A DNA stretch of 64,000 nucleotides from Streptomyces sp. NBC_01571 (GTDB lineage Bacteria > Actinomycetota > Actinomycetes > Streptomycetales > Streptomycetaceae): the NCBI RefSeq assembly GCF_026339875.1, contig NZ_JAPEPZ010000001.1, positions 7,936,001-8,000,000 of the forward strand, written 5' to 3'. Below are positions 38,390-52,498 of this stretch, piece after piece. The notes below the pieces were generated by a model. The model saw only the letters and a program-made list of their open reading frames with translations. It was not told the origin of the DNA and ran no database searches. The translations under genes and the position numbers were made by a program. Positions within the stretch are counted from its first letter, which is position 1; every line of letters begins with the position of its first letter.

Positions 38390-38502
38390 CTAGGGGCCAT
38401 TTTCTGTGGGGGCCGTGGCGTACCGGGCCCTACCGATCGCCCGGGAAGCCATGTTGCTGATGTGGCATATTACGCAGGAAAATCAGCCCGGAAGCTATGG
38501 AG

Positions 38503-38525
38503 AGGGTAAGGGAAGTGCTTACCCT
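38503..38525. promoter_or_regulatory. Palindrome AGGGTAAG-N7-CTTACCCT
   Basis: A perfect 8-bp inverted repeat upstream of the ice-binding-like gene. It could be an operator or an mRNA hairpin. No regulator gene is adjacent. Confidence 0.55.
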
Positions 38526-39117
38526 TCGGATGGCGCAATGAGCAGTTGAATAATTCACCTTCTCGATTCAGATCATCCGACATTCTCTCTGAGTGCATGC
38601 CCATGATTGCGCGTCATAGGGGCGTCGAACAATTCGCATCAAATTTATTCTGCTCGGACAGGGGGAGGTGGCGATATCGCCTTTGTGGGTGCCCCGCGCA
38701 ATGCCGCACTCTCGTTGGAATTCCCGGCATGCGAGCGGGGCGGTGTCCCGTAATCCCCGGTGGACCGGTGCGCGGCGTCAGATGCGGTGTCTTCGCAGGC
38801 CCCTTGAGAGCAAGTGCTCCAGAAGTATCGGGGCCCTGGAGGGAGCGTTGGAGCTCCAGGGCCCCGACGGGCGGGAGCCATGCGCATCACGATATAGCTC
38901 GCGCGCTGCGACGACTCGCACCGTGGGCGGGAGTGTCATCCATGGTGCTCCGGCGAGGACCAGTGCGGAGGGGGCCGCCGAGAGGGGCATGGTGGGAGCC
39001 GCGGATCGCGGATCGCTTGGGAAGTCGTGGACGGCCCGACCGCCTCTCGCATGGCGCGAAGCGCGCATGCACCCTGGAAGAGGAGTATCAGCAAAGGGCA
39101 GGCGAAGGGAAATTCAT
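38526..39117. other. 592-bp gap with a 14-bp stem-loop
   Basis: No convincing gene: the open frames here lack third-position G/C bias and recognisable domains. At 38828-38867 a perfect 14-bp stem (TCGGGGCCCTGGAG / CTCCAGGGCCCCGA) with a 12-base loop resembles a strong terminator or structured RNA. Base composition to its left (38460-38650) is unusually AT-rich. Confidence 0.5.
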
Positions 39118-39390
39118 ATGTGTGCAACGCTCCCGCGGCGAAGGCGTAGCGGCACCGAGCCGAGTACCGCCCGCAGCGCCCTCAAGCTGCGATTCCTTCT
39201 CGCGCTGACCTTTACGCCGTTGTTCGCCGCGGCCACCATCGGGTTCGCCCTCTGGGCTTCTCACGCTCACTCCGGAGACACCGTCGGCCCCACCACCCTG
39301 GCCGTCCTGGCCGCGCTCTTCGGGCTGCTCACCGCGATTGCCGCAATCGACCTGTGGGTCGTCGTACGCCGACGCCGCACCAATGTCTGA
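39118..39390 (+). CDS. Small two-helix membrane protein (DUF6343-like)
   Basis: A 90-aa protein with a basic N terminus (RRRRSGTEPSTARSALKLR) and two transmembrane helices (FLLALTFTPLFAAATIGFAL; LAVLAALFGLLTAIAAIDLW), ending in VVRRRRTNV. The pattern resembles the Streptomyces DUF6343 proteins, which I recall only in outline. A GAAGGGA site precedes ATG 39118. Function unknown. Confidence 0.65.
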   Translation: MCATLPRRRRSGTEPSTARSALKLRFLLALTFTPLFAAATIGFALWASHAHSGDTVGPTTLAVLAALFGLLTAIAAIDLWVVVRRRRTNV

Positions 39391-39581
39391 GCCGCCGCTC
39401 CATATGTGAGCCGCCGCACCGACAGGTGAGCCAGGCGGACCGGAAGCAGGTGCCCGCGGATCCCGTGTGGCGCCCGTGGAGAGCGCCACGCAGGCGTTGT
39501 CGACGTCCGGGGTCAAGTCGACCTGGATGGCTCCGATCGTTCGGCTGCCGGGGGCCCGAGGCCCGGGCCGCGCAGGACGGG

Positions 39582-40067
39582 TCAGCGGTCGTAGCGCCCT
39601 GGGGTCATGGTGCGCCCGTCGTCGGGGCTGGCGGTGCCGTGGCCGGTGCGGTCGTGCGCTGTGAAGGCGGCGGCGACGGCGATCAGGGTCGCTACGGCGC
39701 CGGCGATCAGGTTGCTGGTGATGGAGCGGGTGTGGGCGACGTCGCCGGCGACGACCCAGGGGGCCACGCAGGTCCAGATGCCGATGACGGCGGCGGCCCA
39801 GGCCATGGAGTGGGTGCGCTCGTAGGAGTTGCCGAGGCCTCCCAGGAGCAGCATGTAGGCGATGCCGACGATGAGGTTGGTGACGGCGAGCTGGGTGGCG
39901 CCGAGGAAGCCGCATATCCAGGGGGACGCGGCGATGTACAGGCCGGCGAGGAGGGCCAGGGCCTCGATCATCTGGGCGCGTGGGGTGGTGGCGGCGCGGT
40001 CGTGCCGGGCGCGCAGGCCCATCAGGTCGGGGTGCTCTTCGATGGGTGCGCGGTGGGTTGACGCCAT
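39582..40067 (-). CDS. SPW-repeat membrane protein
   Basis: A 161-aa, four-helix membrane protein of the SPW family. Each helix pair starts with an SPW-like motif (ASPWICGF, APWVVAG), spaced about 60 residues apart, and sits near NLIVGIAYMLLLGG and NLIAGAVATLIAVA. ATG 40067 has a GGAGG site. Family function is not known. It lies downstream of the Asp23/AmaP operon on the same strand, but about 600 bp away. Confidence 0.82.
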   Translation of the reverse strand: MASTHRAPIEEHPDLMGLRARHDRAATTPRAQMIEALALLAGLYIAASPWICGFLGATQLAVTNLIVGIAYMLLLGGLGNSYERTHSMAWAAAVIGIWTCVAPWVVAGDVAHTRSITSNLIAGAVATLIAVAAAFTAHDRTGHGTASPDDGRTMTPGRYDR

Positions 40068-40665
40068 GATGGCCTCCGAGGAGAGATGTCTGTCCACTAC
40101 CTACCTATAAAGGGTACATAAACACCCATAGGGCGTACTGATGTGCTAAACGGTGCGGCGGGGGCTCGGGTGGGGTGGCGGCTCCGGTGGGCCGGCGGAT
40201 CGGGCGCGCATCCATGGTCTGTCGTGCCGTGGTGCCGCGATCCGGCGCACGGGCGGCGAGGCCGCACTCGGTCGGTCACCCGATTGCCGTATGCAGGGCT
40301 CACCCTTCGACGCCGATATTGCGGTGATGCAGGCACAACCCTCAGCGCTGGGGGGCCGCCGTTCACCTGGCGCGCGCGACTCCTCCCGCCCGGCCGTCGG
40401 ACCCACCGGGACGGACACCTCATGGGGCCCGCCCATGGACGAACACCATTACCTGTTCCGCGTCGTCGAGGAACTGTGCACCCGCGGGCTGCTCGCGTCG
40501 GTACACGTATACCCGCCGACCGCTTCGTGACGGACCTCGGCCCGCGAACACCTCGCGGGTGCTTCTCCGTCGCGTTGTTCCGGGGGAGAGCGCCGGTGTG
40601 TGCGGCTCGTCGCGCCGCTCGGTGCCCTCGGTGCCGTCGGCTCAGTGCCCTCGGCGGCAGCGTTC
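40068..40665. other. 598-bp gap upstream of the SPW gene
   Basis: No gene supported. Bases 40098-40145 are AT-rich (CCTATAAAGGGTACATAAAC) and probably hold the SPW promoter. A 31-codon frame at 40435-40530 (MDEHHYLFRVVEELCTRG) is preceded by no clear ribosome site and matches nothing I know. Direct GTGCCCTCGG copies near 40620-40655 lie just past the amaP stop. Confidence 0.4.
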
Positions 40666-41271
40666 CTATTCGGCGCGGTGCGCCTTGTGCCTGTCGATGT
40701 GCAGGTGTGCCTGGGTGGGCAGGTGGGCCAACCCCGTGGACTGGCGTGCGTGTGCCACCGGGCCTTGACACAGGGCTCGTAGGACGGGGGCGGGAAGTCC
40801 GTGATCCGTCAGCGTGAGGGCCACGTGGAGCCGGGGACCGGTCGCCCGTCCGGTGAGGCGGGCGCTGGCCTGCTTGACGTCGGGCAGAGCACGCGCTTCG
40901 GAGGTCACGGCATCGCTCAGGGCACGGCCCCGCAGTTCGACACTTTCGGGCGGGGGCGTCCCGCCCAGGTGTACCGCGCCGGGACGGTGGCGCAGCTGGG
41001 TGAGAAGCCACATGAGGGCCAGGACGGCCGCCAGCACCAGGACGGCGATGACGGCGGGCCACCACCACCAGCCCTGGTCGCTCCAGCGGAGGCGGTCGGC
41101 GTTGCTGACGAGGACGTCGTGGGGCGTGGCCACGGGCCACCCGGCGGGCGGGATCACGTCGAGCCGGCGATAGAGGTCGAAACCGGCGAAGAGGATCAGC
41201 AGGCCGCCTCCCAGCAGCACGAGGCCGCAAAGAGCCAACAGGAGACGGTTGAGAGTGGATCGACCGTTCAT
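40666..41271 (-). CDS. amaP: AmaP-like alkaline-shock membrane anchor protein
   Basis: A 201-aa protein with two N-terminal transmembrane helices (LLLALCGLVLLGGGLLILFAG and WPAVIAVLVLAAVLALMWLL) and a cytoplasmic domain with an Asp23-like pattern (LSDAVTSEARALPDVKQASA). In Staphylococcus aureus AmaP tethers Asp23 to the membrane; a similar role is inferred here. Last gene of the leftward operon Asp23, DUF2273-like, Asp23, DUF6286, AmaP. A GGGAG site precedes the ATG; the gap to the upstream gene is 18 bp. Confidence 0.8.
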   Translation of the reverse strand: MNGRSTLNRLLLALCGLVLLGGGLLILFAGFDLYRRLDVIPPAGWPVATPHDVLVSNADRLRWSDQGWWWWPAVIAVLVLAAVLALMWLLTQLRHRPGAVHLGGTPPPESVELRGRALSDAVTSEARALPDVKQASARLTGRATGPRLHVALTLTDHGLPAPVLRALCQGPVAHARQSTGLAHLPTQAHLHIDRHKAHRAE

Positions 41272-41289
41272 GGCGAGCTCCCGGGCCTG

Positions 41290-41940
41290 TCAGTGGGTGT
41301 GGTGTCGTAGGCGGACCGTCAGCCGCGGGGTGTGCGCCAGGGCGAGCTGACGGCACTGCTCCTGCAGGGCCCGGGTGAGGTCGCTGCGGACGGTCGCGGT
41401 GTCGCGGAAGCGGACCTCCGCGCGGGCGATCACGCGGCGACGTCCGACCCGGACCACGGCACGGCTGATGCCGGGGACCCGCATCGCGGCATCGCGCAGC
41501 ACCATGGCGGCACCCTTGCGATCCAGCCAGGCCCCTGTCTCCGTGGACTCCTCGGGTGCCCGCAGCGGCAGGAGCCGGCGCAGTCCGGGCGTGAGGGCGA
41601 GGATGAGGAGCCACAAGCCGAGAACGACGGCGACGGCGCCCGTGGCCAGCAGCCAGGGGTCGTCGACCGGGCGGGCGGTCACCTCCTCGGCGATGCGGGT
41701 GCGCCATGCCTCGGCGCGGTGCCCGGCGCGCACGGCGATCACGTCGTACAGGAGCGCTCCGACGGCGCAGAACGCCACCAGCGCGACCAGGGCGGCCGGG
41801 ACGCGGCGCTCCGACCACAGGCGCGGTGATCTCGCCCCCCGTTCCTCGTGCCTCGGAGGCTTGGTCGCGGGGGCGCGGCTGTCGGGCCGGTCCGTTCCTG
41901 TTGCCTGCTCGGTCGAGGCGGCCCGGTGTGAGAGTGCCAT
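41290..41940 (-). CDS. DUF6286 membrane protein of the Asp23 operon
   Basis: A 216-aa protein: a polar N terminus (1-45), two transmembrane helices (ALVALVAFCAVGALLYDVI, WLLATGAVAVVLGLWLLILA) and a basic cytoplasmic domain (GISRAVVRVGRRRVIARAEV) of the type found in actinobacterial DUF6286 proteins. Always seen beside Asp23 and AmaP genes as far as I recall. A GGAGGGCG site precedes the ATG. Confidence 0.78.
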   Translation of the reverse strand: MALSHRAASTEQATGTDRPDSRAPATKPPRHEERGARSPRLWSERRVPAALVALVAFCAVGALLYDVIAVRAGHRAEAWRTRIAEEVTARPVDDPWLLATGAVAVVLGLWLLILALTPGLRRLLPLRAPEESTETGAWLDRKGAAMVLRDAAMRVPGISRAVVRVGRRRVIARAEVRFRDTATVRSDLTRALQEQCRQLALAHTPRLTVRLRHHTH

Positions 41941-42031
41941 GGTGTCCGCCCTCCGTCGTCGGTCGGTGGGGTTTCGCCGGCCTCGGTCACGGCCGGTGCT
42001 GTGCTCGGTGCGGGTGGCTCGGGCTGGGGGG

Positions 42032-42445
42032 TCAGCGGACGCGTCCTGGCTGACCCGCGACGACCAGACGCCGTACCGTCAGCATCACCTCGCTGATGTC
42101 CAGGCCGGTCAGGCGGGCCACCTTCTCGGTGACCTCGTGTTGCAGTTGCCGGCAGGTGGCGGTGATGTCCGTGGGATAGGGGAGGTCCACGGACAGCGCC
42201 AGTCGCGCGGTCCCGTCGTGCGTGGTCGCGCGGGCGCCGGGTGCGGCCAGATCAGTGAGTTGCTGCCGCGGACCGGTGATCCGGTGCAGTGCTGTGCCGG
42301 CCGCTCGCGCGGCGATGCGGGCCACGACCCGGTCAGGTATCACCGTCGCGCCGCGTTCCGCGGGCGGTGGGGCGCCGCGTGCGTCGTTCGCACGCCCGTC
42401 GCCGGGGCGCTCGGTCGAGTCGTCGGTACGGGCGTCGGGGCTCAC
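42032..42445 (-). CDS. Asp23/Gls24 family protein (second copy)
   Basis: A 137-aa cytosolic Asp23-type protein starting at GTG 42445, which overlaps the upstream DUF2273-like stop (GTGA). After a polar N terminus come IPDRVVARIAARAAGTALHR and the beta core LALSVDLPYPTDITATCRQL, EKVARLTGLDISEVMLTVRR. Asp23 proteins form a membrane-associated layer linked to cell-wall homeostasis. A longer in-frame reading to 42616 is rejected because it crosses the overlapping 55-aa gene. Confidence 0.82.
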   Translation of the reverse strand: MSPDARTDDSTERPGDGRANDARGAPPPAERGATVIPDRVVARIAARAAGTALHRITGPRQQLTDLAAPGARATTHDGTARLALSVDLPYPTDITATCRQLQHEVTEKVARLTGLDISEVMLTVRRLVVAGQPGRVR

Positions 42446-42609
42446 CGTTGCCGCCGGGTGAATATGTCGGCGTCGCCCTGCAGGATGAGACCTAGGACCA
42501 GGCCCACCGCGCCCAGGACCGCCACGAGGAGGAAGGCCCAGAAGCCGCCGAAGTATCCGGCGAATCCCAGTGCCATTCCGGCCGCCAGGCCTACTGTTGC
42601 TGTGTTCAT
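42442..42609 (-). CDS. DUF2273-like 55-aa membrane protein
   Basis: A very short gene coding for MNTATVGLAAGMALGFAGYF followed by a second hydrophobic run (GGFWAFLLVAVLGAVGLVLG) and a polar end (DADIFTRRQR). The two-helix, Gly-rich hairpin resembles DUF2273 proteins in other Asp23 operons. Its stop overlaps the start of the next Asp23 gene (GTGA), good evidence that it is real. It may help place Asp23 at the membrane. Confidence 0.8.
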   Translation of the reverse strand: MNTATVGLAAGMALGFAGYFGGFWAFLLVAVLGAVGLVLGLILQGDADIFTRRQR

Positions 42610-42696
42610 CGCTCACTCACTTGTCCCTCGGGGTGTTCTGACACCTCGGGCGCGCGTCGTCCCCGGGGGGAGCGGAGCGCTGCCCGCGACCGGGAT

Positions 42697-43182
42697 TCAT
42701 TGGACGCGGCCCTCTGCCGGCTCCTCGTCGTCATCGTCGGGCAGGTTCACGTCGTCGACGACGAGGTTGACCTCGACGACCTCGAGCCCCGTCATGCGTT
42801 CCACGGCGGAGATGACGTTGACGCGCACCTCGGCCGCCACATCGACGATGGCGAAGCCGTACTCGACGACGACGTCGATGTCCAGAGCGGCCTGGCGTTC
42901 GCCCACCTCGACCTTCACACCGCGGCTGACGCCGCCGGTCCCACCACCCGGGACGCGCTCCCGAACGGCTCCGATGGCACGGGTCATGCCCGCGCCGAGG
43001 TTGTGGATACCGGGGACCTCGCGTGCGGCCGTCCCCGCGATCTTGGCTACGACGCCGTCGGCGATGGTGGTCTTGCCCCGCGTCTCGGGAGAGGTGCCGG
43101 CACCGGTCGGCCCCTTCAGCATGGTCGCGGGTTCAGTCGGGCCGTCCTGTCCGGAGGAGGGACGGGCGGTGGTGTCCGTCAT
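42697..43182 (-). CDS. Asp23/Gls24 family protein (first copy)
   Basis: A 161-aa Asp23 protein from ATG 43182 (GAGGTGAC site). A polar N terminus is followed by TTIADGVVAKIAGTAAREVPG, GVSRGVKVEVGERQAALDID, VVVEYGFAIVDVAAEVRVNV and TGLEVVEVNLVVDDVNLPDD, the canonical Asp23 core, with an acidic C-terminal tail (DDDDEEPAEG). First gene of the leftward envelope-stress operon and divergent from an ECF sigma gene across a 152-bp gap. Confidence 0.9.
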   Translation of the reverse strand: MTDTTARPSSGQDGPTEPATMLKGPTGAGTSPETRGKTTIADGVVAKIAGTAAREVPGIHNLGAGMTRAIGAVRERVPGGGTGGVSRGVKVEVGERQAALDIDVVVEYGFAIVDVAAEVRVNVISAVERMTGLEVVEVNLVVDDVNLPDDDDEEPAEGRVQ

Positions 43183-43334
43183 GACAGTCACCTCGATCAC
43201 TCGATGCGGGCACCGGCGCAGTGCCCGTCACAGGATTCGACACACCTGGGCGGCGAATCGTCACATAATTCCGCGAAACGACATCAGATATCTCAGGCCG
43301 GGCACCCGTATCACGGCAGGGAGGAGGTGCGGTC

Positions 43335-43955
43335 GTGCAACACATCGCCGGCCCTTCCCCGCCTCGGGCGGCCCGCCGCGACCCCACTCCCGGAGCCCCC
43401 GTCTGCGACGGATTGTTCACCGCACCGGACGGACTGCTGGCGACGCGCGCCGGTGAGGGCGACGAGGAGGCCTTCACCATCCTCATGCGGCGCCACAGCC
43501 GCCCCCTGCTCGCGCTGGCCCTGCACACTCTGGGCAACCTCCCGGACGCCGAGGACGCGGTCCAGGACGCCTTCATCAGCGCCTGGAGGCGCCTTCCCGA
43601 ATTCCGTCACGCCTGCGCGTTCAGCACCTGGATGTACCGCATCACGGTCAACCGCTGCCTGAACTCCCTGCGCCGCCGGCCGGCACCGGTACCGTTGAAC
43701 GCAGTGGCCGAACCCGCCGCCGAGGTGGACAGCTCGCCGGCACAGGCGGCTGAAGAGGACGCCCTCGCCGACGCCCTGGCCGACGCGCTCGGCGCTCTCG
43801 ACCCCGGTCAGCGGGTGTGCTGGATCCTGCGGGAACTGCACGGCCTGCCTTACGAACAGATCGCCCAGGTGACCGGCACCTCCGAGCAGACGGTCCGCGG
43901 AAGGCTGTACCGGGCACGCCGATCCCTGAAGGAGATGATGGGCCCGTGGCGCTAG
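43335..43955 (+). CDS. ECF-family RNA polymerase sigma factor
   Basis: Sigma factor of 206 aa. Region 2 spans about 45-110 (EEAFTILMRRHSRPLLALAL, DAEDAVQDAFISAWRRLPEF, FSTWMYRITVNRCLNSLRRR). Region 4 spans about 145-200 (LGALDPGQRVCWILRELHGL, YEQIAQVTGTSEQTVRGRLY). GTG 43335 has GGAGGAGGTG upstream. The following Asp23-type gene starts inside its end. The divergent Asp23 operon and downstream gvp cluster are candidate targets. Confidence 0.92.
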   Translation: MQHIAGPSPPRAARRDPTPGAPVCDGLFTAPDGLLATRAGEGDEEAFTILMRRHSRPLLALALHTLGNLPDAEDAVQDAFISAWRRLPEFRHACAFSTWMYRITVNRCLNSLRRRPAPVPLNAVAEPAAEVDSSPAQAAEEDALADALADALGALDPGQRVCWILRELHGLPYEQIAQVTGTSEQTVRGRLYRARRSLKEMMGPWR

Positions 43956-44527
43956 ACGACCAACCCGCCCGGCCGCCGCCCCCCGACCGTCCGCACATGC
44001 CGTCCCACCGGCGGCCCCCGGACGGGAGCCGTCGGCCGGAAGAGGCAGGCGGCACCGGTCCGGCCGCCGGCCATCACGTCGCCTGCCCCTGCTGTCGCGA
44101 CACCTTCGAAGACCCGGCACTGGACACGGCGACGGAGGCCCTGCAGAACCGCGAACCACCCAGCACGCAGTGCCTCGTGGCCCGCGTCATGACCATCGTC
44201 CACGACCAGATGTGGCCAGGGCCGACGCTGCCCTTGGACGATCCCACGCGCACCCTGCACATAGTCGAGCGCGCCGCGTCCGCCGTACTGCGGCGCGCGG
44301 CGGACGAGGTGCCCGGTGTCACCGCCGTCAGTTGCCGCCTTGCCCGATCCGACCACCTCACGGGCGTGCGAGTGAGCATGACCCTGACCGCCGGTATGAA
44401 CCGTCCCCTGCCGGAGACGGCCGGACTGGTGCGCCGCTCAGTAGTGGACATCTCCGGCCATGACCTGGGCCTGGCGGTGACCGCCGTCGACATCACGGTG
44501 ATCGAGGCCCACCACACGTCCGGGTAG
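43946..44527 (+). CDS. Asp23-like protein with HX3CX2C motif, coupled to ECF sigma
   Basis: A 193-aa protein overlapping the sigma gene by 10 bp. Near residues 53-60 it has HHVACPCCR, fitting the H-x3-C-x2-C signature of zinc-associated anti-sigma domains. The remainder reads as an Asp23-like domain (LHIVERAASAVLRRAADEVP, GVRVSMTLTAGMNRPLPE, ISGHDLGLAVTAVDITVIEA). It has no transmembrane helix. Position and motif suggest a soluble anti-sigma factor or redox sensor; the Asp23 half may link it to the envelope proteins encoded opposite. The function is inferred. Confidence 0.72.
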   Translation: MALDDQPARPPPPDRPHMPSHRRPPDGSRRPEEAGGTGPAAGHHVACPCCRDTFEDPALDTATEALQNREPPSTQCLVARVMTIVHDQMWPGPTLPLDDPTRTLHIVERAASAVLRRAADEVPGVTAVSCRLARSDHLTGVRVSMTLTAGMNRPLPETAGLVRRSVVDISGHDLGLAVTAVDITVIEAHHTSG

Positions 44528-44659
44528 CCGTCCCCACCGCGCCGGACCAGGCGGCGTCCCATGCCCATGCCCGCGTGGCCCCTCCGCCCTCCGCCCGATG
44601 TATACGCCGTCTGCTCTGCTCGACGTGCGCTATGGCTGAGATTGATCAGACTTGTAGGC

Positions 44660-44980
44660 ATGGCAGAAGAACGTCGGCCGCGCGCCGGGAAATCCTCGAC
44701 GACAGCCGCTCGCCGCCCACCACCCGTGCGGGGGGCAGGCCAAGCCGCGAAGGCTGCCTGCCGGAGCCTGGAGGGGCTGATCGGCCATCCCACGGAGGGC
44801 GTGTCAGCGGTGAAGCGTGTCGATGACGGCTGGTGTGTCGTCGTGGACGTCCTTGAGCTGCCCCGGATTCCGGACACGACGAGCCTTCTCGCCTCGTACG
44901 AGGTCCAGCTCGACCAGGACGGCGAACTCCTGGAGTACTGCAGGGTCCGCCGCTATCGGCGGGGGTCCGCCGATGAGTGA
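44660..44980 (+). CDS. gvpO: Gas vesicle protein GvpO
   Basis: First gene of the gas vesicle cluster, 106 aa. A basic N terminus is followed by the GvpO domain ([60 protein letters not shown]). GvpO is an accessory protein of actinobacterial and haloarchaeal gas vesicles of uncertain role. ATG 44660 begins [10 protein letters not shown]; there is no strong ribosome site. Confidence 0.9.
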
Positions 44981-45012
44981 CCCAGGTTTGCCGACGATCG
45001 GAAGGACGCCAC

Positions 45013-45477
45013 ATGCCTGCGACCACCTACTCCGATGAGGTAGTGGCGTGCCCGCCGCGCGCCGGCACGTTGTACGACGTGCTGGAACTCATCCTCGATC
45101 GGGGCATGGTGATCGACGTGTTCGTCCGGGTCTCCCTGGTCGGCATCGAGATCCTCAAGATCGACGCGCGCATCGTCATCGCGAGTGTGGACACCTACCT
45201 GCGGTTCGCCGAGGCGTGCAACCGGCTGGACCTGGAACGGGACTCCGGCAGCACCACCGTTCCCGAACTGCTCAGCGGCAGTGCTGCCAAGTCCATCGGG
45301 AAACGCAAGGTCCGCAAGGCCGCGGAGAGCGTGGGGGACACCGTACGCAAGGCAGTCGGGGGCCGCAGCGACGACTCCGACGACCACGACGAGGACGAGG
45401 ACGAGCAGCAGGAACGACCGAGGAAGCGGCGTGCTCCTGCCCGAAGCCGCACGAGTCGACGACCGGTGGAGGCCTGA
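45013..45477 (+). CDS. gvpA: Gas vesicle structural protein GvpA
   Basis: Main shell protein, 154 aa from ATG 45013 (GGAAGGA site). Residues about 18-66 are the GvpA core ([57 protein letters not shown]), which packs into the hydrophobic-lined wall. A long extension follows with a Lys-rich amphipathic segment ([20 protein letters not shown]), an Asp/Glu run and a basic end. Classical GvpA proteins are about 70-75 aa, so half of this protein is extra tail, which could decorate or block the shell. Confidence 0.9.
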
Positions 45478-45480
45478 GTC

Positions 45481-46230
45481 GTGGCAACCGACGGGGTGTA
45501 CGTGTACGCGATCATCCGGGCGGGGAATCCGTTGCCGACAGACACAAACGGTGTGGGCAGCCCCGCCGCCCCGCTGCGAACGGTCCGGCAGGGCCGGGTC
45601 GCCGCCGTCGTCAGCGAGGCGCCCCCGAACCTTCGCGCCAGACGACGGGACCTTCTGGCTCACCAGGAACTGTTGCTGCGCCTTTCGGACCAAGGCCCGG
45701 TCCTGCCCATGCGATTCGGGATGGTGGCACCGGACGAGGAGTTGGTGCGCGGTCAACTGGCGGCCCGCGAGGCGGAGCACCTGGCTGTGCTGGAACTCCT
45801 CGACGACGGGGTCGAGGTCAACGTCAAGGCGTTTCCGGCACAGAACGCGCTGGGAAGCCTCGTCGCGGAGGACAAGCACGTCCGGCGGCTGCGGGACGAG
45901 GCACGTCGAAGGCCCGGTTATGAAGCCAACGTCCGATTGGGCGAAGCCGTCGCGACCGCTCTGGACAGCAGGGCCGCCGAAGCGGGCCGGCGAGTACTGC
46001 GTGAACTCACACCCAGGGCGCGCGCCGTGGCCACCGGACCGGAAGTCCAGGGATGCGTGCTCAACGTGTCGTTCCTCGTCGATCGGGCCGACAGCGACGG
46101 CTTCCTAGACGCGGCGGAGAAGTTCGCCGAAGCACACCGCGACCGCGTCGAACTGCGCATGGCAGGCCCGCTGCCCTGCTACAGCTTTGTCTCCGCCGAA
46201 GGCACCTCTGTGCGGACGGCGGGAGTCTGA
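45481..46230 (+). CDS. gvpF: Gas vesicle protein GvpF
   Basis: GvpF/GvpL family accessory protein, 249 aa, which in characterised systems binds GvpA before assembly. Motifs are VYVYAIIRAGNPLPTD, GRVAAVVSEAP, DLLAHQELLLRLSDQGPVLP, MRFGMV and the C-terminal VELRMAGPLPCYSFVSAEG. GTG 45481 lies three bases after the gvpA stop. Confidence 0.92.
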   Translation: MATDGVYVYAIIRAGNPLPTDTNGVGSPAAPLRTVRQGRVAAVVSEAPPNLRARRRDLLAHQELLLRLSDQGPVLPMRFGMVAPDEELVRGQLAAREAEHLAVLELLDDGVEVNVKAFPAQNALGSLVAEDKHVRRLRDEARRRPGYEANVRLGEAVATALDSRAAEAGRRVLRELTPRARAVATGPEVQGCVLNVSFLVDRADSDGFLDAAEKFAEAHRDRVELRMAGPLPCYSFVSAEGTSVRTAGV

Positions 46231-46231
46231 C

Positions 46232-46501
46232 ATGGGTCTGATCACCGGAATTCTCACACTCCCCATCGCACCGGTCCGTGGCGTCATCTGGGTGGCAGAA
46301 AAGCTCAATGACGCGGCCGATCGCGAGTTGCACGACCCAGGGGTGCTCCGCGCCCAGTTGGCTCTGCTGAACCGCGAACTCGAGGACGGGGACATCAGCT
46401 TGGAGGAGTTCGAACGAGAAGAGGAACGACTGCTCGATCGGCTGTATGCCACACAGGTCGCTCCCGCACCGAATGACCGAAGGGGACACGCTCATGGATG
46501 A
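46232..46501 (+). CDS. gvpG: Gas vesicle protein GvpG
   Basis: Small helical accessory protein, 89 aa: MGLITGILTLPIAPVRGVIW, VAEKLNDAADRELHDPG, LRAQLALLNRELEDGDISLE, EFEREEERLLDRL. It matches the GvpG family in length and helix pattern. The ATG follows the gvpF stop immediately and the end overlaps gvpY. Confidence 0.92.
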   Translation: MGLITGILTLPIAPVRGVIWVAEKLNDAADRELHDPGVLRAQLALLNRELEDGDISLEEFEREEERLLDRLYATQVAPAPNDRRGHAHG

Positions 46502-47414
46502 GAAGGAAAAGGTCACCCTCGCAGCCGCTGTGGTGGGCGGTTATGTGCTGGGCCGAACGAAGAAGGGCCGCCTGGCTCTGTCCATCGCGACCTATCTGGC
46601 GGGCCGACGATTCGGCCTCGAGCCTCGCCAGCTCGCAGCCGAGGGTATGCGGAGACTGGGGGAGATTCCCCAGTTCGCCGAGTTGCAGGAGCAGTTGCGG
46701 GGCGAAGTCCTCCAAGCGGGACGTAAGGCAGTGGCAGCCGCTGCCGACCGGGGGATGAGCACGCTTGCCGACGCCATCAGCGACCGTACGGCCCGGCTCG
46801 GTGAGGTCGCGGGCGAGGACGAGGAGGAAGAGGAGGAGTACGCGCCGGAGGACGAAGACGCCGAGTACGAGGAAGAGGAAGAGCCGGAGGCCGAGGAGGA
46901 AGAGGAGGAGGAAGAGGGAGAGCCGGAGGCGGAGTACGAGGACGAGGAAGAAGAGGACGAGCCGGAGGCCGAGGAGGAAGAGGAGGAGCCGGAGGCCGAG
47001 GAGGAAGAAGAGGAAGAAGAGGAAGAGCCGGAAGAGCCGGAAGAGGGGCGGCCGCAGCCGCGACGCAGCCCATCCCGATCGGCACGGTCCCGCAGGGCAT
47101 CCGCACCGGCGACACCCAAGAAGACAGCTCCCTCCCGCGCGGAGAAGAGGAGCCGGACGGCCAAGGCCGCGCCTCGGAAGGCCGCGCCGGCCAAGAAGGC
47201 GGCGGCGAAGAAGTCCGCCCCGGCGAAGAAGTCCGCACCGGCGAAAAAGGCCGCGCCGGCCAAGAAGGCGGCGGCAAAGAAGTCCGCCCCGGCGAAGAAG
47301 TCCGCGCCCAGGAGCGCGACGGCGAAGAAGTCCGCACCCGCCAAGAAGACCGCGGCCAAGAAGACGACGTCATCGAAGCGAGCAGGATCCAAGCGCGCCG
47401 ATCGTCGGAGGTAG
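46494..47414 (+). CDS. gvpY: GvpY-like gas vesicle cluster protein with polyampholyte tail
   Basis: A 306-aa protein. Residues 1-90 hold the conserved part (KVTLAAAVVGGYVLGRTKKG, LAGRRFGLEPRQLAAEGM). Residues about 105-200 are almost pure Glu/Asp with Tyr and Pro-Glu-Ala breaks. Residues about 200-306 are a Lys/Ala/Pro histone H1-like tail (AAPAKKAAAKKSAPAKKSAP). Such charge-block sequences often drive phase separation or wrap polyanions. Assigned GvpY by its place between gvpG and an SRPBCC-type gvpZ, as in other Streptomyces gvp loci. Automated tools may mislabel it by low complexity. Confidence 0.78.
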   Translation: MDEKEKVTLAAAVVGGYVLGRTKKGRLALSIATYLAGRRFGLEPRQLAAEGMRRLGEIPQFAELQEQLRGEVLQAGRKAVAAAADRGMSTLADAISDRTARLGEVAGEDEEEEEEYAPEDEDAEYEEEEEPEAEEEEEEEEGEPEAEYEDEEEEDEPEAEEEEEEPEAEEEEEEEEEEPEEPEEGRPQPRRSPSRSARSRRASAPATPKKTAPSRAEKRSRTAKAAPRKAAPAKKAAAKKSAPAKKSAPAKKAAPAKKAAAKKSAPAKKSAPRSATAKKSAPAKKTAAKKTTSSKRAGSKRADRRR

Positions 47415-47420
47415 CCAGCC

Positions 47421-48509
47421 ATGACCAAGACGGAGAAAGATCAACCCGCCGAGGAAACCTCGGGTATGGACCGGATCCGCGAAGAGCTGTCCAAGTTCCT
47501 CTCCGCGCAGGTGGAGAATCTCGCCGAGAAGGCGGGGGAAAAACTGACGGACGTCACCGGAAAGCTTTCCGAAGCGTCCGAGTCCGGCTCACTTCCGGCG
47601 ATCGGGTCGCGCATCCTGCAGGGTGACTCCCCGCTGAAGGCCTTCGTCTCGGAAAAGGCCAAAGGCGTCAAGGACAACGTCGTAGGGAAGGTCAAGGACG
47701 CGTTCGGCGGGGGGAAGGGGAAACGCAAGTCCAGCGGCGGCAAGGTCATGAACATCATCGAGGTCCTCGATGTCGGCGTGCCGCTGCGCGATGCTTACGA
47801 CTACTGGACGCAGTACGACCAGTTCAGCAGCTTCGCGAAGGGCGTTCGCGACGTCTCGAAGACCGACGAGGTCGGGAGCGACTGGAAGGTCAAAGTCGGT
47901 CCTTCTTCGCGCAGTTACAAAGCGACTGTTCAGGAACAGATTCCCGACGACCGCATTGTCTGGACCTCCGAAGGAGCAAAGGGCACCACTCGAGGCGCGG
48001 TCAGTTTCCATGAACTGGCACCTACCCTGACCCGAATCGTCCTGGTCGTGGAGTACTACCCGTCCGGGTTCTTCGAGAAGACCGGCAACCTGTGGCGGGC
48101 CCAAGGGCGCCGCCTGCGACTGGACTTCAAGAACTTCCAGCGGTACGTCAGCCTCACCAACGAAGAGCCCGAAGGCTGGCGCGGTGAAATCCGCGACGGT
48201 GAAGTCGTCGTGTCCCACGAGGACGCCATGGAGGAAGAGGAAGCCGAGCAGGAGGAGTCGGAGGGCGAGGAGCCCGAGGGCGACGACGAGGACGAGGCCG
48301 CGGAAGGCGCCGACTCCGCCTACGAGGACGAAGCCGAGGACGCCTACGAGGACGAGCCCGAGGACGAAGAGGAGGACGAGGAGGAGGAAGAGGGAGCGGA
48401 GGACGAAGAAGGCGAAGGCGCGTACGAGGACGAAGAGGAGGACGGCGAGGAGGATGAGGACGCGTCCGCCTCCAAGAAGCGGCGAGGGCAGAGGCGGCGC
48501 CGTGACTGA
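47421..48509 (+). CDS. gvpZ: GvpZ-like SRPBCC protein with acidic tail
   Basis: A 362-aa protein. Residues 1-105 are an amphipathic helical region (FLSAQVENLAEKAGEKLTDV, KAFVSEKAKGVKDNVVGKVK). Residues about 110-250 are an SRPBCC/START-like hydrophobic-pocket domain (IEVLDVGVPLRDAYDYWTQY, DQFSSFAKGVRDVS, WTSEGAKGTTRGAVSFHEL, VLVVEYYPSGFFEKTGNLWR). Residues 260-350 are an acidic Glu/Asp tail ended by SKKRRGQRRRRD. It shares the charge-block plan of GvpY. Overlaps gvpJ by 8 bp. Role in vesicles not established. Confidence 0.82.
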   Translation: MTKTEKDQPAEETSGMDRIREELSKFLSAQVENLAEKAGEKLTDVTGKLSEASESGSLPAIGSRILQGDSPLKAFVSEKAKGVKDNVVGKVKDAFGGGKGKRKSSGGKVMNIIEVLDVGVPLRDAYDYWTQYDQFSSFAKGVRDVSKTDEVGSDWKVKVGPSSRSYKATVQEQIPDDRIVWTSEGAKGTTRGAVSFHELAPTLTRIVLVVEYYPSGFFEKTGNLWRAQGRRLRLDFKNFQRYVSLTNEEPEGWRGEIRDGEVVVSHEDAMEEEEAEQEESEGEEPEGDDEDEAAEGADSAYEDEAEDAYEDEPEDEEEDEEEEEGAEDEEGEGAYEDEEEDGEEDEDASASKKRRGQRRRRD

Positions 48510-48837
48510 CGTCGACTTCCGGCAGAGGTCCTATCCCGTATCCGGCCCCCAGACCACCAACCTTGCCGACATCCTCGAACGTGTTCTCGACAAAGGGATC
48601 GTGATCGCCGGGGACATCAAGGTCGACCTCCTCGACATCGAGCTGCTCACCATCCGGATCCGCCTGTTCGTGGCCTCCGTGGATACCGCGAAGAAGGCGG
48701 GAATCGACTGGTGGGAGACCGATCCGGCACTCAGCTCGCGCGCTTCCCGCAACGCCCTGCAGGACGAGAATCGCGCGTTGCGTGAGCGTCTGGAGGCGCT
48801 CGAATCCAAGACGGAGGACGACTCGCCCGAGCGGTGA
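48502..48837 (+). CDS. gvpJ: Gas vesicle protein GvpJ (GvpA paralogue)
   Basis: A 111-aa minor structural protein of the GvpA/J fold: NLADILERVLDKGIVIAGDI, KVDLLDIELLTIRIRLFVAS, VDTAKKAGIDWWETDP, then a short coiled tail (DENRALRERLEALESK). GTG 48502 lies inside the gvpZ end. GvpJ-type proteins are thought to help nucleate or cap the vesicle. Confidence 0.9.
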   Translation: MTDVDFRQRSYPVSGPQTTNLADILERVLDKGIVIAGDIKVDLLDIELLTIRIRLFVASVDTAKKAGIDWWETDPALSSRASRNALQDENRALRERLEALESKTEDDSPER

Positions 48838-48927
48838 CCCCAGAGCGGCAATCCCGCCTCACCCACTCCATCCACCTCATCCATCGCATTCACCTCATCC
48901 AGCAAGGACCAAGGAGAACCGAGGAAC

Positions 48928-49731
48928 ATGACGGAGCGCGGCCCTGGGCATTCGGACGCCAACGCCACCTACGTGTTCGCCGTCTGCTGGAACCCGGAAC
49001 CGTCGGCCCTCGTCGGTCTGCGAGGGGTCACCGACGAGGCGCCCGTGAGCACACTGCCGCTGGAGACGCTGACAGCGATCGTCCAGACCGTCCGAGCCCG
49101 CGACTTCACCGACGAGGCATGGCAGGCACGCCTGTCCGACCAGCGGGAACTCGAACGTTACGCCCGCGCCCACCACGATGTCGTCAGCGCGGCTGCCGCC
49201 TGCTGCCCCACCGTCCCGCTGCCCATGGCCACGCTGTACCACGGTGAGCAGAGGGCGCGGGACGCGCTGAGCAGCGAGGCCGACCGGTTTCATACGGCGC
49301 TCCAGCGCATTGCTCACCATGCCGAGTGGGGCGTGAAGGTGTACGCACCACCCTGCCCACCGGACGATTCGATCCGCAGTGCCACCCCGGCAGGCCGGTC
49401 CCGCCCGGCACCCGGAGCCGGCCTCGCCTACCTGGAGCGCAAGCGCGGAGTGCAGGAGCGTCGCGAGCGGAGCCAGGACGAGGCACTGCGGGTCGCCGAA
49501 TCGGTGGATGCCGAAATCAGTCTCCTCGCCGCCGCGTCCCGCAGGTTGCGACCGCACGGTCAGCAGCTCTCCGGGGAACGGCGGATCCAGGTCCTCAACG
49601 CAACGTATCTGGTAGCGGAGCACCGCGCCGGCGAGCTCACCCTGCTGGCACAGTCGCTGCGCGAACGGACCGGGGTACAGATCGAGCTGTCCGGGCCGTG
49701 GGTGCCCTATTCCTTCGTCGGCGAGGTGTAG
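48928..49731 (+). CDS. gvpL: Gas vesicle protein GvpL
   Basis: Second GvpF/L-family protein, 267 aa: TYVFAVCWNPEPSALVGLRG, LPLETLTAIVQTVRARDFTD, LERYARAHHDVVSAAAACCP, TVPLPMATLYH and the end LSGPWVPYSFVGEV. An AAGGAG site precedes the ATG after a 90-bp gap, the longest inside the cluster. Confidence 0.9.
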   Translation: MTERGPGHSDANATYVFAVCWNPEPSALVGLRGVTDEAPVSTLPLETLTAIVQTVRARDFTDEAWQARLSDQRELERYARAHHDVVSAAAACCPTVPLPMATLYHGEQRARDALSSEADRFHTALQRIAHHAEWGVKVYAPPCPPDDSIRSATPAGRSRPAPGAGLAYLERKRGVQERRERSQDEALRVAESVDAEISLLAAASRRLRPHGQQLSGERRIQVLNATYLVAEHRAGELTLLAQSLRERTGVQIELSGPWVPYSFVGEV

Positions 49732-49734
49732 ACC

Positions 49735-49962
49735 GTGACACGCGACGTGGTGCCTTGGGACAACCCCGGGCCGCTGCAGGGCCCCATCGGGGTGCCTCTC
49801 GTCGACCTGCTGGACCGCGTCCTGGCCACCGGGGTGGTCATCAGCGGTGACCTGGTCATCGCCATCGCCGACGTTCCGTTGGTGCGGGTGTCGCTTCATG
49901 CTCTGTTGTCGTCCGTCAACGAACGCGTTCCCGCTCCCTGGGCGGACGGAGGCCCACTGTGA
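49735..49962 (+). CDS. gvpS: Gas vesicle protein GvpS (GvpA-like)
   Basis: A 75-aa GvpA-fold protein: PLVDLLDRVLATGVVISGDL, VIAIADVPLVRVSLHALLSS. It is the third GvpA-like protein in the cluster. GTG 49735 lies three bases after gvpL, and the stop overlaps gvpK (GTGA). Confidence 0.87.
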   Translation: MTRDVVPWDNPGPLQGPIGVPLVDLLDRVLATGVVISGDLVIAIADVPLVRVSLHALLSSVNERVPAPWADGGPL

Positions 49963-50237
49963 CGCGATCCCGGGTCGACCTCGACTCCGAGAAGATGGGG
50001 CGTGACCTCGTCGCCCTGGTGCTCACGGTGGTCGAGCTCCTCAGGCAACTGATGGAGCGGCAGGCGATTCGCCGTGTCGAGCAGGGCGATCTCAGCGATG
50101 CGCAGGTGGACGAGATCGGGACCACTCTGATGCTGCTGGACCAGCGGATGACCGAGCTCTGCGAGCAGTACGGAGTCCGGCCGGAGGATCTCAACCTCGA
50201 CCTCGGGCCCCTCGGAACCCTTCTGCCGCAGAGCTGA
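49959..50237 (+). CDS. gvpK: Gas vesicle protein GvpK
   Basis: Last gvp gene, 92 aa: RVDLDSEKMGRDLVALVLTV, VELLRQLMERQAIRRVEQGD, ARVDEIGTTLM-like QVDEIGTTLMLLDQRM, GVRPEDLNLDLGPLGTLL. This is the conserved GvpK pattern at full length, so the cluster is complete from O to K with no broken gene. Confidence 0.92.
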   Translation: MTRSRVDLDSEKMGRDLVALVLTVVELLRQLMERQAIRRVEQGDLSDAQVDEIGTTLMLLDQRMTELCEQYGVRPEDLNLDLGPLGTLLPQS

Positions 50238-50404
50238 TACGGCAGGCCTGTAGCAGGGCGTCGCGCGATTCGACACAGGACCTGGTCGCTCAGGATGACG
50301 CAGGACCTGGTCGCTCAGGAGGGGTGGCTGGGCGGGCGCCGCTCGCCGGAGCGGGCCGAGAGTGGCGTGTGCGGAAGCTCCTGGGCGGCAATGTCGTGGT
50401 TGCG

Positions 50405-50578
50405 TCAGCGCTTGAAGGTGCCCTTGGAGCTTTCCTTCGCACCCCGCATCATGCCTCGTGCTTCGAGGGCGGCACCTTTTGCCGCGAGGGTTTCCTTGTG
50501 TGCCGCGTGGGCCGCCTTGCGAACGGTCTTCCCGATGACCTGTTCGGCCTTTGCCTTCGCTCTTTCTCCGGCAGTCAT
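50405..50578 (-). CDS. CsbD-like stress protein
   Basis: A 57-aa helical, Lys/Ala-rich protein: MTAGERAKAKAEQVIGKTVR, AAHKETLAAKGAALEARGMM, RGAKESSKGTFKR. It fits the CsbD family of small general-stress proteins, though divergent. ATG 50578 has GGAGGTACCGAG upstream and a sigma-B-like promoter before it. It converges on gvpK. Confidence 0.72.
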   Translation of the reverse strand: MTAGERAKAKAEQVIGKTVRKAAHAAHKETLAAKGAALEARGMMRGAKESSKGTFKR

Positions 50579-50609
50579 CTCGGTACCTCCACGGAGTCTC
50601 ACTGATCGT

Positions 50610-50634
50610 GTGCCCGCGAGGCAGGGAGCAAAAC
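50610..50634 (-). promoter_or_regulatory. Sigma-B-like promoter GTTT-N15-GGGCAC
   Basis: On the minus strand GTTT (50634-50631) and GGGCAC (50615-50610) are separated by 15 bp, near the Streptomyces sigma-B consensus GNNT-N14-16-GGGTAY, 32 bp before the CsbD-like start. One base of the -10 differs. Confidence 0.45.
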
Positions 50635-50736
50635 CACAACCGTCACAGGGGCCCCGCAGGTCCCCCCAGAAGCATCCGCCGACGAGTCACGCCATGCCGC
50701 AGGTCGGACGGGTGCCGCGACGCGAAGAAGAACCCC

Positions 50737-51161
50737 GTGACGGCGGTTACCGACAAGATCCAGAAAGTCGTCCATCCCGGTAACGAGATCCCGGGCGCGC
50801 CGGGCCCGGTGCCGCCACCCGTCGACGAGCCGACCGAGCCGGTCGAGCCGCTGCCACCCAAGCCCGACCAGCACGGCCCGGACACGTACAGCCCCACAGG
50901 ACAGGCGACGGGCGTCCCTCAGGACAAGGTCGTGCAGGGCGGTGAGTACCTGACCACGGCTCAAGGCACGCGACTGTACGAGACCGACCACTCGCTGAAG
51001 GCCGGTGCCTGGGCCGGGGGAATGGACGTGTTGGAAGCCACCGGCATCGTCCCCGACGCCCCCGGTGTGGTGACCGCCGACAGCGCCGACGTGACCGTGC
51101 AAGGCGTCACCGACCTGCCGGCCGGCCGCCGCGCACGGACCGCTTCACCCCGTCGGTCTGA
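50737..51161 (+). pseudogene. katE: Large catalase (KatE type) remnant with internal deletion
   Basis: The first ~86 codons match the N terminus of Streptomyces large-subunit catalases (VTDKIQKVVHPGNEIPG-like start, DTYSPTGQATGVPQ, EYLTTAQGTRLYETDHSLKAG). In a whole enzyme SLKAG is followed by the heme-binding catalase core. Here the frame runs directly into GAWAGGMDVLEATGIVPDAP and GVVTADSADVTVQGVTDL, which matches the extreme C-terminal flavodoxin-like domain. Some 550-600 codons, including every catalytic and heme residue, are gone. The expected end (DRFTPSV, stop 51159-51161) is one base out of frame, a further lesion. No catalase activity is possible. Confidence 0.82.
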
Positions 51162-51426
51162 TTCCCGGCCCCGCGGATCCCGCCTGCGCTGGGCAGGAGC
51201 CGCGGGACGGCCGACGTGTCCCACCCGCCACCCCTCAGTCGCCCGGCACCAGGCCGGACGCGGGACGAAGCTGTTGGCCACCGCATCCGCTGATGCGCCG
51301 CAGGCGGCCGACCCCGAGTATCAATGGGCCGGCGCACCCGTCCTACGCTTGCCCGCCCCAAGAACGGCAGCGGAGTCACCGGTAGCAGTACTTGGCAGGT
51401 GAGAGTGGCGTTGAGTGCTCGGTAGC

Positions 51427-51861
51427 TCATGCGCCGGATTCGACGCCGGGGGATTCGATGTACTGCTTGAAGCTCTTGAGGTCGCCGGTGACTCGCCGCT
51501 TGACGAAGCCGAGCCGGTCGCCGAGGGTCTCGCTGAAGCCGGTGGGTTCGTAGTCCAGCCGGAGCGTGACCTTGGACTTGACGTCGTCCAGGTGATCGAA
51601 GGTGACGAGGCCGGCCCACTTCGCCTCACCGCCGACGGTCGTCCAGGCAACGCGCTCGTCGGGGATCTGCTGGGTGACCTCGGCATCGAATTCCCGTTCG
51701 ACCCCGGCGACCCTCGTCTTCCAGTGGGTGAGGGTGTCGTTGACCCGAGTGACCCTCTCAACGCCTTCCATGAAGTGAGGGAACGTCTCGAACCGCGTCC
51801 ACTGGGTGTAGGCGGTACGGAGGGGAACGTCGACCTCGATGGACTTCTCGACCTGCGACAC
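51427..51861 (-). CDS. SRPBCC-family protein (cyclase/dehydrase-like)
   Basis: A 144-aa START/SRPBCC fold: VEKSIEVDVPLRTAYTQWTR, FETFPHFMEGVERVTRVND, DAEVTQQIPDERVAWTTVGG, GLVTFDHLDD, LRLDYEPTGFSETLGDRLGF. GTG 51861 with GAGGAGAAGGG upstream is preferred over a longer frame. The core is clearly related to the central domain of GvpZ 3 kb away, here without the helical and acidic extensions. A lipid or hydrophobic ligand is likely; function unknown. Confidence 0.85.
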   Translation of the reverse strand: MSQVEKSIEVDVPLRTAYTQWTRFETFPHFMEGVERVTRVNDTLTHWKTRVAGVEREFDAEVTQQIPDERVAWTTVGGEAKWAGLVTFDHLDDVKSKVTLRLDYEPTGFSETLGDRLGFVKRRVTGDLKSFKQYIESPGVESGA

Positions 51862-52498
51862 GTGACGACCCTTCTCCTCGCATGGCCACACCGGCGGGAA
51901 CCAGGTGCTGGGGACGGTTTCATGAATGCCCCTCGCCCCGATGCCGAGCACATCGGCGCAGTTCGTGCCCCTCGAACGGATGCCTGGACTTCGCACGGGA
52001 ACGGTGCGTGACGACAACGGGCCGACGCGGGAGCACACGCTTCCGCCGGTGAATGGAACGAGATGTAGCGGTGTGTGACACTTTGGTTTCAGGCCTGGTC
52101 TGTCGCTACCCCCTTCGTGGCGGACCAGGCCTCATCGCGTACCGGCAGTCGGCGTGTTCGCCGCTGTCGCGGGTGAGGCGCCGGGTGGCCCGGTCGGTGG
52201 GGCGAAGGGCATCGGCGCGCGGTGCGATGCTGCCGAGTACCTCGCTACCCGGGCCGAGGACCTGAAGGACGTCTGGTGGCGACCGCCGATGAGGGCACGA
52301 TTCGTGCTGCGGCCGGCCGATCGATAAGGTGCCGGATCACGACCGCACCCGTTGCACCCACGGGCCGGTCAGGGCTCTGCCGCAGTGTGTGGCACCTCCA
52401 CGGCTGCCTTGCCGACCCCTGCCTGCCCGGACCCTGGGACACGGGGGCGATCTTCACGGCGGGGCAGCCGGGCCCCGGCCGACGGTCAGGAGGAACGA
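51862..52498. other. 637-bp divergent gap with a hairpin
   Basis: No gene recognised. AGGCCTGGTC (52091-52100) and GACCAGGCCT (52123-52132) form a perfect 10-bp stem with a 22-base loop. A 35-codon open stretch at about 52215-52327 (DAAEYLATRAEDLKDVWWRP) has coding-like composition but no start or known family. Promoters of the SRPBCC and IMP dehydrogenase genes should lie here. Confidence 0.4.

Follow-up and report, generated by a model that had tools for sequence, protein, structure and literature searches.

Asp23 and gas vesicle genes as recurrent neighbours in Streptomyces, with a predicted sigma factor site facing asp23

Within the 64,000 nucleotides of Streptomyces sp. NBC_01571 analysed here (C1:7936001-8000000 of an 11.5-Mb genome, the window), genes of an Asp23 envelope operon and of an extracytoplasmic function (ECF) sigma factor lie directly beside a cluster of gas vesicle (gvp) genes. 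The leftward operon contains, in order, asp23a, a DUF2273-like gene, asp23b and the genes for a DUF6286 and an AmaP-like protein, whilst on the rightward side ecf is followed by a third gene of 193 aa and then by gvpO-A-F-G-Y-Z-J-L-S-K, with an overlap of 10 bp between the ecf stop and the third gene and a gap of 132 bp before gvpO. The neighbourhood of asp23 and gvp genes recurs in many arrangements, and its tightest pair is asp23 with gvpY-gvpZ, the ECF gene being optional. The asp23 operon is probably the best-supported target of the sigma factor as judged from predicted sites, from which control of the gvp genes by it is unsupported. Why soil streptomycetes keep gas vesicle genes is an old question, to which the recurrent and rearranged neighbourhood offers a concrete partnership, that of Asp23 with GvpY and GvpZ, and the predicted site bears directly on what the sigma factor controls.

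A recurrent neighbourhood in several layouts

In the first 30 loci compared, with about 1.5 kb of flank, gvpO was found beside the pair of ecf and third gene only in the window, and gvpY in L030. When 50 loci from named genomes were scanned with up to 10 kb of flank (14 of them shorter than 20 kb, being cut by contig ends), 12 were found to have at least three gvp genes within 10 kb, in several layouts. Layout A, that of the window, is found in L071; in layout B (L075, L078, L096, L109, L115 and L120, some cut by contig ends) gvpK to gvpO run leftward and are followed by gvpYZ, the asp23 operon and ecf; layout C is found in L073, layout D, with gvpO in the place of asp23a, in L114, layout E in L116 and L119, and layout F in L118. 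A few gvp pieces are retained in L090 and only gvpYZ in L110 (S. kronopolitis), where gvpY (from 3859) and gvpZ (4582) adjoin amaP and no other gvp match above 30 bits occurs in the locus.

Close relatives of the third gene were found in 12 of 392 genomes of the genus (E<=1e-34), and the stretches read are those of its own genome and of six of the other 11 (G596, G562, G467, G647 and G535 were left out, and two of the relatives read are contigs under 7 kb). Among these seven, the exact layout of the window occurs only in its own genome and in G448 (= L071), and G587 has it in decayed form. On the sigma factor tree the linked loci are spread widely, and the gvp clusters concerned come from three deep branches of the gvp tree, therefore the linkage was gained or restored on more than one occasion, these being FastTree trees of small samples with some weakly supported nodes, the gvp tree rooted at its midpoint. 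L071 also carries a second gvp cluster, assigned to a different branch of that tree, which follows the first immediately and is convergent with it (L071:17780-20501; L161:16946-19778).

Of the 103 GvpO loci in 101 Streptomyces genomes at least 7 have an Asp23 gene no more than 10 kb away, where about 0.4 would be expected (Poisson P 2e-7, rising to 3e-4 if the density is tripled). This is a Poisson null and not a permutation, it assumes on average about 1.7 Asp23 genes in each genome and its input counts were entered by hand (96 was entered for 95 genomes, and 24 for what were 23 GvpO loci on recount), and the coordinate-based counts of proximity to Asp23 are lower bounds, to which the asp23a of the window and the Asp23 neighbour of one GvpZ locus (G067) were added from the loci themselves. 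In the other genera of a class-level sample 5 of 41 GvpO loci are linked, and four of these come from a single genus. The sequence-only reading had looked to conserved linkage across genomes as its check, and here it stands in part: the neighbourhood recurs beyond chance and in several layouts, but the exact layout is rare, being shared with one other genome and, in decayed form, with G587. The association of asp23 with gvp genes is broader than was first stated and extends beyond the window layout.

Asp23 and the pair GvpY-GvpZ

Asp23 adjoins gvp genes without an ECF gene in L123-L126, and in L130-L133, from another family and likewise with no ECF gene, asp23 diverges directly from gvpY-gvpZ. 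Among 86 GvpZ loci (E<1e-60, 101 genomes, rows counted by hand) at least 12 lie within 7 kb of Asp23, where 0.24 would be expected. The order asp23-gvpY-gvpZ-asp23 is found in G044 and asp23-gvpY-gvpZ in G100, two genomes in which no match to Gas_vesicle (PF00741) and no match to GvpO was found. The SRPBCC domain of GvpZ belongs to a family described as including lipid transport, which together with the hydrophobic N-terminus of GvpY fits a membrane role for the two proteins. It is possible, though on balance doubtful, that GvpY and GvpZ are primarily partners of an Asp23-AmaP layer and not vesicle-assembly proteins, that they tie the gvp cluster to this layer as an envelope or turgor-stress device, and that asp23-gvpY-gvpZ works alone in genomes that lack the shell genes.

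Two loci have further features. In L124 (11776-14431) gvpF, gvpJ and gvpL match only in short pieces, which may mean either decay of this asp23-linked cluster or a frameshift in the assembly. In L134 (8652-9008) the DUF6286 gene and gvpY have between them a short open frame with the sequence GAEDKIKNAAED, which we take to resemble the CsbD stress proteins.

A predicted target site at a fixed distance from asp23a

Upstream of ecf, all 51 loci have the site TTGGACAY-N13-15-CSTCAC (given as on the ecf strand) with at most two mismatches. A start candidate of asp23a lies 48-60 bp from it in 49 of the 49 loci where asp23a adjoins, and the distance to the aligned ecf start ranges over 86-268; the start of asp23a is a choice made from candidate codons, and the ecf distance was taken to the aligned start and not to the start codon. 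In the window asp23a probably starts with the ATG at 43182, the distance from site to start being kept in relatives. An initial view that the site reads toward ecf was dropped on account of the fixed asp23a distance and of paired divergent copies in L011, L014 and L016. Sites of at least 15 bits also occur upstream of ecf in 13 of 20 loci of the sister ECF clade, some as two divergent copies, and L134, which is from another family and has an ECF gene, scores 25.7 bits. Nine asp23 loci without an ECF gene have no site above 14.4. Between the site and the start of asp23a there is an inverted repeat, GGGCAC..GTGCCC (window 43207-43227), also visible by eye in several relatives, which is a possible operator or hairpin.

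The first site pattern has two matches in the window's own genome (none for the backward control) and the relaxed reversed pattern has one, the window site itself, therefore no large set of further sites is seen. A site matrix run over window positions 38001-53000 and 14 loci found nothing comparable before gvp genes, and a promoter shared by gvp and asp23 was rejected, the other hits reaching at most 14.1 against 22.9-31.7 for the known asp23a/ecf sites. A motif shared by 41 gvpO upstream regions was also rejected, the short dyads recurring in as many as 17 or 13 of these regions, where shuffling gave at most 7 or 6 respectively, being tentatively put down to related copies and GC-rich sequence. 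Since the conserved site keeps a fixed distance from asp23a and no comparable gvp site was found, it is asp23 that the sigma factor is predicted to drive. The earlier proposal that one sigma factor sets the expression of both modules is not supported, the site apparently facing asp23, with no comparable copy at the gvp genes of the window part and the 14 loci scanned, and the linkage occurring also where there is no ECF gene.

The third gene as a predicted anti-sigma factor

The third gene had been called Asp23-like from the window alone, and this holds in the sense of a family likeness below threshold: of 51 aligned members, the window included, 18 match Asp23 and 25 match DUF6286 at E<=0.01. 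The window protein itself has no Pfam match to Asp23, and DUF6286 reaches 22.1 bits against a cut-off of 35, and a reading as anti-sigma factor is preferred. Its N-terminus contains HHVACPCC, that is H-x3-C-x2-C, the motif of zinc anti-sigma (ZAS) factors, in which the fourth zinc ligand lies upstream and is Cys or His; at the aligned place the window protein has no Cys. In relatives paired with the same sigma type HxxxCxxC is present in 68 of 70, 66 of them with an upstream CGR, and the start codon overlaps the sigma stop in all 70 (at -9 in 63 and at -3 in 7, the candidate closest to -9 being chosen).

An AlphaFold2 model of the canonical relative in L116 has a mean predicted local distance difference test (pLDDT) of 81.4, weaker around residues 80-110, with helices within residues 39-102 followed by an alpha-beta domain (113-201), and the model of the window protein (79.8) agrees with it over residues 43-189, its N-terminal part being helical. 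Fold searches of these models covered the C-terminal domain, and a profile search against PDB sequences listed 3hug_B, which we take to be RslA, at E 0.088 and below two zinc fingers, a hint only. Because of the zinc motif, the overlap with the sigma stop, the model and the prediction that the soluble Asp23 proteins adjoining ECF286 and ECF292 are anti-sigma factors (PMC8999054), the third gene is more likely to encode an anti-sigma factor, with a ZAS-like N-terminus and an Asp23/DUF6286-like C-terminal domain, than to be a target of the sigma factor.

Gene complement of the window

The gene order and positions claimed by the sequence-only reading agree with the Pfam scans and coordinates (Table 1). 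The whole actinomycete set of gvpO, A, F, G, Y, Z, J, L, S and K is present with all frames open, although for GvpY the Pfam scan gave no family above cut-off. In the envelope operon Asp23a, Asp23b and DUF6286 score above cut-off and the AmaP-like and DUF2273-like proteins below it, and the GTG start of asp23b overlaps the stop of the DUF2273-like gene. The sigma factor has sigma-70 regions 2 and 4 only, in about 200 aa, and its protein has one match at E<=1e-30 in its own genome. The 132 nt ahead of gvpO yielded neither a terminator-like nor a sigma-70-like site, and their folding is not unusual (z 0.55).

Table 1. Features of the window, with positions, strand and the evidence for each
Feature	Position	Strand	Evidence
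AmaP-like membrane anchor	40666..41271	-	NF033218 44 bits, below cut-off 55; homologue here in most module loci
DUF6286 protein	41290..41940	-	PF19803 107.5 bits
Asp23b (second Asp23)	42032..42445	-	PF03780 28.6-30.2 bits, cut-off 28
DUF2273-like small membrane protein, 55 aa	42442..42609	-	PF10031 17.1 bits, E 0.0055, below cut-off 25.4
Asp23a	42697..43200	-	PF03780 94.6 bits
Predicted ECF target site	43235..43264	-	Toward asp23a GTGACG-N16-TGTCGAA(T); + strand TTCGACAC-N15-CGTCAC
ECF sigma factor, 206 aa	43335..43955	+	Sigma70_r2 65.1, r4_2 55.2 bits
Predicted anti-sigma factor	43946..44527	+	HHVACPCC; 10-bp overlap with ecf; AlphaFold2 model
gvpO	44660..44980	+	PF05800 117.1 bits
gvpA	45013..45477	+	PF00741 (Gas_vesicle) 43.8 bits
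gvpF	45481..46230	+	PF06386 198.7 bits
gvpG	46232..46501	+	PF05120 95.7 bits
gvpY	46494..47414	+	Hydrophobic N-terminus, acidic then lysine-rich tail; homologues adjoin asp23
gvpZ, SRPBCC (polyketide-cyclase-like)	47421..48509	+	PF03364 67.3 bits; homologues adjoin asp23
gvpJ	48502..48837	+	PF00741 58 bits
gvpL	48928..49731	+	PF06386 177.1 bits
gvpS	49735..49962	+	PF00741 52.5 bits
gvpK	49959..50237	+	PF05121 123.2 bits

Three further leftward genes lie close by. Beyond gvpK (51427-52038) is a second SRPBCC protein, with 34% identity to residues 106-245 of GvpZ, and on the side of the AmaP-like gene are an SPW-repeat protein (39582-40097, PF03779, 57 bits) and, further out, an Ice-binding-like protein (37055-38389, PF11999, 210 bits).

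Two allied modules and the alternatives

The explanation put forward here, which we regard as evenly poised between right and wrong, is an envelope or osmotic stress island of two allied modules. In the first, the ECF sigma factor would be held by its translationally coupled, soluble anti-sigma factor with zinc motif and Asp23-like domain; once released it would transcribe the divergent operon of asp23, DUF2273, asp23, DUF6286 and amaP, whose products would build a membrane-anchored Asp23 layer, Asp23 being described as tethered to the membrane (PMC9769785). The second module, the gvp cluster, would be under stress control of its own, perhaps with read-through from ecf in the window layout, and would often be kept near because at the membrane GvpY and GvpZ would act together with Asp23. 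That the pairing recurs in differently arranged relatives suggests that the gvp genes serve in an envelope stress response rather than in floating.

Published expression data bear on this second module. In S. coelicolor, induction of the gvp1 cluster is reported for vancomycin (8 of 8 genes), bacitracin (7) and moenomycin (7), for salt as cited in the same source (PMC3123327), and also for heat shock (PMC2687793). Acid shock in this species is reported to raise 11 of 16 gvp genes and to lower 2 (PMC2631018), three gvp genes are given as raised under acid stress in S. albulus (PMC7317143) and gvp genes as overexpressed in S. coelicolor without ArgR (PMC5839063), whilst a statement in PMC4982088 has it that, as of 2016, no conditions were known under which S. 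coelicolor forms vesicles. A search among open-licence papers found none linking Asp23 with gas vesicles. The notion of the gvp genes as a stress structure is supported in part by the asp23-gvp neighbourhood and the published induction of gvp1, without the common sigma control originally attached to it.

A number of results weigh against the two-module explanation. Below the threshold for linkage are 38 of the 50 clade loci, and in a second Streptomyces set, taken from the class-level sample, none of 23 GvpO loci in 17 genomes is linked; 5 of 12 gvpZ loci, chosen by ourselves from the GvpZ search and read for their neighbours, consist of gvpYZ with neither asp23 nor other gvp genes. L114 keeps the predicted site although gvpO and not asp23a holds the divergent place, given which the site may also be used by ecf, or in both directions; a 15-bit site is absent upstream of ecf in 7 of the 20 loci of the sister clade, and the backward-read control of the relaxed pattern has one genomic match as well. 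No clear match to any ZAS structure was found in the profile search against PDB sequences. The third gene is less constrained than its surroundings, with a ratio of nonsynonymous to synonymous substitution (dN/dS) of 0.52 against 0.10-0.35 for nine neighbours, and the zinc motif has been lost from L071 (CB01635), the nearest relative found. Lastly, an Asp23 gene of S. venezuelae, paralogue unspecified, is reported as lowered after ethanol shock (PMC9769785).

Two other explanations address the neighbourhood as a whole. If the ECF sigma factor activated both asp23 and the gvp genes directly, the placing of ecf, anti-sigma gene and gvp genes on one strand in the window, with no terminator found in the 132-nt gap, would be expected, as would L134, where an ECF-type site before asp23 is followed by same-strand open frames on to gvpY-K; nevertheless the matrix search gave no comparable site before gvp genes, genomic sites are few, the site keeps its distance from asp23a, other layouts have gvpO on the opposite strand or kilobases off, and asp23 and gvp genes are linked where there is no ECF gene, which makes this account quite unlikely. 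That accessory asp23 and gvp genes simply meet by rearrangement in variable chromosome regions, with no functional link, agrees with the patchy linkage in many layouts, with the second Streptomyces set and with duplicated modules near gvp genes in G587 and G448. We consider it unlikely, as tripling the assumed density still leaves the counts above the Poisson null, as directly adjoining asp23-gvpY-gvpZ is a repeated finding that includes genomes with no match to shell genes, and as linkage holds in all four g17 genomes in which GvpO was found. Compared with common sigma control, a partnership between the Asp23 layer and the gvp genes, probably by way of GvpY and GvpZ, is the better hypothesis.

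A different possibility, compatible with any of these, is that the anti-sigma gene of the window is decaying, leaving the sigma factor constitutive or controlled only through its own transcription. As far as the aligned sequences go, the zinc motif is eroding in the window's clade: the window protein does not have the Cys that serves as first zinc ligand, L071 has no motif, and in G587 the third-gene copy next to gvpO is split and has no matched ecf at its side, an intact module lying about 12 kb off (G448 also has a second module, without gvp genes in the stretch read). Against L071 the third gene has a dN/dS of 0.52, compared with values of 0.23 in ecf, 0.13 in asp23a and 0.10 in gvpO. The window frame is nonetheless still open, HxxxCxxC is retained, the C-terminal domain is well modelled and ecf is still constrained, and decay is offered only tentatively.

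Comparison with known systems

The staphylococcal Asp23-AmaP system, which in S. aureus is under SigB, has Asp23, DUF2273-like and AmaP-like proteins in common with the window, whereas asp23 in the window is predicted to be under a dedicated ECF sigma factor. ZAS factors, which include RsrA and RslA, are resembled by the third gene and its relatives in the C...HxxxCxxC of the relatives, in the helical N-terminal part of the model and in the coupling to the sigma gene, but are unlike them with regard to the C-terminal Asp23/DUF6286-like alpha-beta domain and to the first Cys, which the window copy does not have. ChrR, RshA and RseA are given as further ZAS examples (PMC8999054).

As in ECF286, for which the example given is Streptomyces rimosus, and ECF292, the ECF gene of the window adjoins a soluble protein of the Asp23 family, an agreement in the neighbour gene and not in a group model, and unlike the window the passages of that source on these two groups do not mention a zinc motif, a target site or linkage to gvp genes (PMC8999054). 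The gvp1 cluster of S. coelicolor (SCO6499-6508) has the same gene set as the window, gvpO-A-F-G-Y-Z-J-L-S-K (PMC5839063, PMC2631018).

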